DNA of 29,212 nt from a virus: the IMG/VR virus record IMGVR_UViG_3300030061_002550, positions 4,629-33,840 of that record, one strand, 5' to 3'. Below, in pieces: positions 1 to 1,941 of the stretch. The notes below the pieces were generated by a model. It did no database searches. It was not told the DNA's origin and was given only the letters and a program-made list of their open reading frames with translations. Numbering within the stretch: position 1 is the stretch's first letter; the number at the start of each line of letters is the position of its first letter. Made by a program: the position numbers and the translations under genes.

Positions 1-95
1 GCGTCCTGCTAACAGGATGAACGATCCGTTCCGAGTCGGCTTACTTGCGTCCCCCAGTCGAAGGGGGGATGAACGATTGTGTTAATAATAACACA
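1..95. repeat. Hairpin-bearing direct repeat at window edge
   Basis: The sequence GCGTCC, a stem-loop, then GGATGAACGAT occurs twice. The 11-base end motif lies at 15-25 and 67-77, 52 bases apart. The stems are TCCTG/CAGGA (4-17) and TCCCCC/GGGGGA (50-69), so different stem sequences sit in the same frame of conserved bases. A third perfect hairpin, TGTGTTA/TAACACA, lies at 78-95. The 52-base period is not a multiple of three, which argues against a simple coding repeat. It may be a structured RNA or the edge of a repeat array extending beyond the window. No function can be assigned. Confidence 0.5.
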
Positions 96-1808: not shown

Positions 1809-1833
1809 AAAAAAGGGGAGTCAAACTCCCCTT
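1809..1833 (-). terminator. Strong Rho-independent terminator
   Basis: On the minus strand AAGGGGAGT pairs perfectly over nine bases with ACTCCCCTT around a TTG loop (1813-1833), and TTTTTTCTTG follows. It ends the putative small RNA and stands 15 bases before glutaredoxin. Confidence 0.93.
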
Positions 1834-1906
1834 GTGTTCTCACCAACACACTTCCCCCACCACAGGAAAGTGACTTCAATCCCAAAACTACAAGGATGTT
1901 GAAGAT
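1809..1906 (-). ncRNA. Putative structured small RNA (or glutaredoxin leader)
   Basis: This non-coding stretch lies between the 157-aa gene and glutaredoxin. It starts just after a consensus sigma-70 promoter and ends in a strong terminator, giving a transcript of about 98 nt. On the minus strand it folds into consecutive hairpins: CTTCAA/TTGAAG with an inner TCC/GGA (1904-1874), CACTTTCC/GGGAAGTG (1872-1849), GTGTT/AACAC (1849-1834) and the terminator (1833-1813). The second stem is complete only on the minus strand, where its odd pair is a U-G wobble; on the plus strand it would be an A-C mismatch. This supports transcription from the minus strand. It could be a free small RNA or an attenuator/riboswitch leader for glutaredoxin. 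I recognise no known RNA family. Confidence 0.65.
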
Positions 1907-1912
1907 GTAGAT

Positions 1913-1941
1913 ATTATAAGAGATTTTTAATCATATGTCAA
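1913..1941 (-). promoter_or_regulatory. Consensus sigma-70 promoter
   Basis: The minus strand has TTGACA (1941-1936), a 17-base spacer, and TATAAT (1918-1913): both boxes and the spacing are exact consensus. It fills the space just after the stop of the 157-aa gene (1944). A likely start is the A at about 1906. It suggests strong transcription by host RNA polymerase and no need for a phage late sigma factor. Confidence 0.85.

Follow-up and report, generated by a model that had tools for sequence, protein, structure and literature searches.

The window analyzed here, a stretch of 29,212 nucleotides, is part of a 41,208-base IMG/VR virus record. On its minus strand, a 157-amino acid gene of no assigned function (1944-2417) is followed by a glutaredoxin (nrdC-like) gene (1793-1533, ATG at 1793), identified through Pfam (PF00462, E = 4e-11) and PHROG 22 (thioredoxin domain). 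The region between them contains a predicted small RNA gene on the same strand. Its promoter is made up of exact consensus hexamers: the -35 hexamer TTGACA (1941-1936), which starts two bases past the stop codon of the upstream gene, and, after a 17-bp spacer, the -10 hexamer TATAAT (1918-1913). The predicted transcript measures approximately 98 nt (1906-1809), its start around 1906 and its end being placed from the promoter and the terminator. It begins with hairpin 1 (P1, 1906-1872), made up of an outer stem (1906-1899 with 1879-1872) whose outermost two pairs are unformed in the window member, an inner stem (1896-1893 with 1883-1880) and the loop UUGUAGUUU (1892-1884). It continues with the 8-bp hairpin 2 (P2, 1871-1850) and its loop GUGGUG (1863-1858), both hairpins being supported by covariation, and with a linker (1849-1834) that carries a UUGRUGR motif and, in the window member, a small third hairpin (GUGUU-GGUGAG-AACAC). 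The 9-bp stem of an intrinsic terminator (1833-1813, 5 GC) is followed by a T-run to approximately 1809, and a gap of 15 nt separates the terminator from the glutaredoxin ATG. A TATAAAT motif resembling the late promoters of cyanophages (1804-1798) precedes the glutaredoxin gene. The promoter (1941-1913) and the nine-base-pair terminator with its T run 15 bases before glutaredoxin had both been proposed in a preliminary description of this DNA, and their coordinates agree with it.

Taken alone, the promoter is only mildly unusual: the exact 12/12 promoter has a single instance in the whole window and appears somewhere in 19 of 300 Markov-randomized windows. The fold of 102 nt reaches -36.4 kcal/mol, compared with -27.1 ± 3.2 for shuffled sequences (z = -2.9, 0/200), and the z score drops to -1.7 without the terminator. 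Since the promoter is mildly unusual and the fold energy comes in part from the terminator, the evidence from this single sequence is suggestive, not decisive. The decisive support for the RNA is comparative and comes from covariation.

Relatives were gathered with the glutaredoxin protein, the terminator, a hairpin-2 pattern and two promoter-plus-hairpin patterns. L035 and several pattern matches were dropped as terminator-only or unrelated. The first set contains 46 distinct sequence versions. Nearly all of them come from cyanophage contigs of IMG/VR; a freshwater isolate, Synechococcus phage S-SRM01 (MW015081), is also represented. In this phage the RNA lies upstream of the glutaredoxin gene, and a blastn search with a metagenomic member finds it (E = 6e-6). 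In a gapless MAFFT alignment of 20 members that was not fitted to the structure (A2), 95% of the cells are paired and 10 of the 20 pairs have changed on both sides. The covariation score of this alignment is 0.365, compared with 0.176 ± 0.015 after shuffling (matched by 0/500 shuffles), and structures slid along it score at most 0.11. The alignment of 43 members to the model (A3), which is structure-fitted and hence biased towards the structure, displays both-side changes in 15 of 20 pairs (127 cells, 0/500 shuffles). P2 is 100% paired in A2, with 5 of its 8 pairs changed on both sides, and 99.4% paired in A3, with 7 of 8. The small RNA that had been put forward as a candidate has thus passed the test for compensatory changes in homologous regions. 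The covariance models derived from the family (R1 and R2) are good enough for annotating the RNA elsewhere.

The common anatomy of the family starts with P1, with a GUCUUC-type outer stem on its 5' side, a UCC/GGGA-type inner stem and a loop of the form UUGYANNUU. It is followed by a P2 of approximately 8 bp with a GUGGUG loop, a linker that is usually UUGRUGR, the terminator and the T-run. The terminator hairpin and T-run follow the core in the relatives, with varied sequence. Of the 20 relatives found by promoter-free queries, all have TTGACA and 18 have TATAAT, the other two having TATACT. The invariance of the GUGGUG loop is partly by construction, because several search patterns contained GGTGG; the eight members found via glutaredoxin alone (L002, L003, L005, L006, L007, L017, L022 and L023) all have this loop. 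The UUGRUGR linker is absent from several members, and the linker can form a hairpin of at least 5 bp in 25 of 46. The third small hairpin is not a conserved element: the approximately 98 bases with three hairpins of the preliminary description hold for the window member, but only the first two hairpins extend to the family. The RNA has a conserved secondary structure and, judged by sequence motif, its own promoter and terminator, as would be expected of a trans-acting phage sRNA, and the preservation of the structure over dozens of related viruses makes it very probable that this is a working regulatory RNA.

None of the Rfam 15 covariance models reaches its gathering score over the region, in agreement with the initial failure to match it to a known RNA family. 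The best sub-threshold match, SraG, is on the opposite strand and chance-like (29 bits, gathering score 50). The non-coding RNAs named in the literature on cyanophages (CfrI, PhotoRC-II, wcaG, manA, abiF and the glutamine riboswitch; PMC9964418, PMC2864571, PMC12197685) are mostly a cis-antisense RNA and cis-regulatory leaders, and none of them is the present RNA. A text search of the S-SRM01 paper (PMC8557907) for small or non-coding RNA returned no mention. The RNA is thus a new, previously uncatalogued family, although a transcriptome paper may contain it as an unlabelled record, subscription journals lying outside the literature search. CfrI, described from S-PM2 as an antisense RNA of approximately 225 nt against psbA and a homing endonuclease gene (Millard et al. 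2010, as summarized in PMC2984593), is likewise a non-coding RNA of a lytic T4-like cyanophage. Yet, by that summary, it differs from the present RNA, which is intergenic, approximately 98 nt long, equipped with its own consensus promoter and terminator and antisense to no neighbouring gene; it has no antisense overlap with psbA or a homing endonuclease gene. The wcaG (RF01761), manA (RF01745), PhotoRC-II (RF01717) and glutamine riboswitch (RF01739) RNAs are, like this one, conserved structured RNAs of cyanophages (PMC2864571, PMC9964418), but they are described as cis-regulatory and none of them matches the region by covariance model. By kind rather than by sequence, the family may be likened to P22 sar, a stand-alone, trans-acting phage sRNA that is also short and structured and acts on other transcripts, in that case in an enterobacterium and not in the host of a cyanophage (PMC12197685).

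We consider it rather likely that the locus is an independent small-RNA gene of T4-like cyanophages, with an early promoter, action in trans through the GUGGUG loop and a glutaredoxin gene expressed separately and late. The RNA is not tied to one downstream gene, as would be expected of a trans-acting sRNA. From its sequence we infer early transcription, action in trans and contact through the GUGGUG loop. Host RNA polymerase would recognize the consensus, sigma-70-type promoter early in infection and produce a transcript of approximately 98 nt ending at the intrinsic terminator. This RNA would fold into the two hairpins conserved by covariation and expose the GUGGUG loop, often along with a second stretch, UUGRUGR. 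These stretches would then contact another RNA in trans; the most likely mode is an antisense or kissing-loop interaction with C-rich sites of the ACCACC type in mRNAs of the host or the phage. Glutaredoxin would be expressed from the late promoter suggested by the motif beyond the terminator, and the RNA could additionally arise from a 3' UTR when late transcription reads through from the tail-fibre genes upstream. A free-standing RNA kept by T4-like cyanophages of both marine and fresh waters, with S-SRM01 as a cultured carrier, would allow control of host or phage genes at the RNA level to be tested in aquatic viruses of a very abundant group.

Action in trans through the GUGGUG-loop hairpin is probable, but the search for targets in phage and host proposed at the outset returned no significant site: no good site was found in the rRNAs, and nothing significant emerged from a conserved-target scan of the phage genes of six phages or from half of the WH7803 genome. 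In that half, CACCACC is present in 19 of 1168 start regions, including psbA. Scored by the loop alone, host psbA takes rank 5-6 of 1168, but it drops to 141 once the flanks count, so it does not stand out as a target, and the phage psbA starts examined lack ACCACC whether or not the phage carries the RNA. In the strongest reading, which seems unlikely, this would be the first trans-acting RNA family found to be conserved in T4-like cyanophages, an early and abundant host-takeover RNA of marine and freshwater phages whose GUGGUG loop redirects host translation, for example by covering the ACCACC after the host psbA start codon (AUGACCACCACC). Two S-SRM01 genes are preceded by a hairpin with a CACCAC loop that pairs very well with the RNA (-21.9 kcal/mol) but was not seen in the other phages. 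S-SRM01 also contains, at 88.5-90.4 kb (L235 38500-40400), GC-richer repeats (GGACAGTTCGCAAGGTGGCACAAG) that precede neighbouring genes, with two CACCAC-loop hairpins right before an ATG and no Rfam match.

Several alternatives may be weighed against an independent, trans-acting RNA. The main rival for how the RNA acts is a decoy: its GGUGG loops would titrate either an RNA-binding protein of the host or a component of the ribosome, and would pair with no mRNA. The loop is conserved while the stems vary freely, in loop 1 two variable positions interrupt a fixed UUGYA..UU frame, which suits the recognition of a structure better than antisense pairing, and the strong promoter suggests abundance. 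GGUGGUG is also present in cyanobacterial 16S rRNA (read from the complement). Nevertheless, this last resemblance extends over only a 7-mer and may be due to chance, and we know of no cyanobacterial protein with a GGUGG-type site, so that a decoy appears unlikely, if worth keeping in mind. The RNA may have a protein or a small molecule as a ligand.

A second alternative, which we regard as improbable and somewhat more so than the decoy, is a cis-acting glutaredoxin leader, in which an aptamer or attenuator would decide the passage of the terminator into the glutaredoxin gene. The order of promoter, structured region, terminator and gene corresponds to the layout of a transcriptional riboswitch, and nearly all members are followed by glutaredoxin. 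Furthermore, the 5' strand of P2 pairs with the 5' arm of the terminator at -8.0 kcal/mol in cognate and -7.4 kcal/mol in swapped combinations (permutation p = 0.0065). Yet, this excess is small, and both relatedness and purine/pyrimidine bias confound it; the alternative pairing is also less stable than the native stems, and hairpins 1 and 2 coexist with the terminator in nearly all the full-length folds inspected. The gene context also speaks against a leader. Each of the 46 distinct members in the first set has TATAAAT shortly after its core and terminator, one base off the late T4-type promoter motif reported for S-PM2, NATAAATA (PMC2984593). Since TATAAAT follows the terminator in all of them, glutaredoxin probably has its own late promoter. 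In L110, a gene for an HNH endonuclease (PHROG 953, E = 1e-87) is inserted between this motif and glutaredoxin. In a second type of locus (L131 and L230, L231, L232 and L233), a divergent member of the family (35-44 bits with R1, E = 1e-6 to 1e-10) lies upstream of a peptidase gene of 705-728 amino acids (PHROG 459), with no adjoining glutaredoxin; the downstream motif read from L230-L233 resembles an extended -10 and not TATAAAT, and L131 has another inserted HNH gene. One member from each context was examined for what lies upstream, in each case a DUF7936 protein; the window has a different gene there. Judged by motif and gene order, there is thus neither the constant downstream gene nor the dependence on read-through expected of a glutaredoxin riboswitch. 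As the RNA changes its downstream partner and is separated from it by punctuation, it is best read as a gene of its own. Between the two readings initially offered, an independent RNA is favoured and a switchable glutaredoxin leader is disfavoured.

The two HNH genes are found directly downstream of the RNA in different gene contexts (L110, 11848-12486, minus strand; L131, 10715-11005, plus strand), a placement suggestive of homing to the conserved RNA gene.

It is very unlikely that the locus is mere operon punctuation, that is, a terminator for the upstream tail-fibre genes next to a fortuitous promoter and hairpins: the terminator does sit between the upstream operon and glutaredoxin, and a terminator-like match without the RNA was found in other phage DNA, but compensatory changes in both hairpins 5' of the terminator, conserved loops and a conserved consensus promoter contradict this explanation. 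Finally, a plus-strand RNA or a small coding gene, for which nothing speaks except the intergenic position, can be dismissed almost completely, as pairing is 84% in antisense and 95% in sense and the members share no reading frame. The strand is identified by the U.G pairs of P2, namely the loop-closing pair and one internal pair: the closing pair alternates between U.G and G.U across the family, flips that would be A.C on the opposite strand, and point to the minus strand. The early remark that one stem forms fully only in the minus-strand RNA through a U-G wobble was right in substance. Similarly, the claim that no open frame explains the region held when a conserved ORF was sought across the family: none was found, there is no common start codon or frame, and the longest frames measure 0-23 codons and differ between members.

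Each long record checked contains one significant copy of the RNA, including the 213-kb G001 and the 241-kb genome of S-SRM01, the cultured carrier, which grows on Synechococcus KCZYC6. The presence of psbA in G001, G002, G004 and G005 is consistent with cyanophages; psbA was not found in the 41-kb record of the window. At least 19 further records (phage or single-cell virus) yielded no convincing copy of the RNA, among them Syn9, P-SSM2, S-PM2, S-SM2, P-HM2, S-SKS1, S-T4, S-RIM50, S-CRM01 and S-CBWM1. The best match in the S-PM2 genome (E approximately 0.01) lacks a promoter and a proper hairpin 1. A match in S-RIM2 was rejected for its position inside a coding sequence, and those at S-PM2 35878 and in ACG-2014f look like chance. 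A host origin was also rejected: the picocyanobacterial genomes searched, 6 of Synechococcus/Cyanobium and 300 of the host family to which these belong (one common to both sets), gave only chance-level matches, including two weak ones among the 300 without the loop or hairpin.

Some other elements were observed in these searches. S-PM2 (NC_006820, 11370-11421, minus strand; L223) contains a stand-alone intergenic hairpin with a GUGGU loop that resembles hairpin 2 only and has neither a promoter nor a proper hairpin 1. The psbA with the highest identity to the phage copy (90%) comes from a contig labelled Gammaproteobacteria (L240, NYUL01000008), probably a misbinned cyanophage contig. The glutamine riboswitch (RF01739) was matched in the window (23-77, minus strand) and in L042 (3850-3901, plus strand), its score equalling the gathering score, with an apparent second tandem copy at the window edge, and S-SRM01 has a weak copy of this riboswitch (28.9 bits) approximately 1.6 kb downstream of its glutaredoxin gene.
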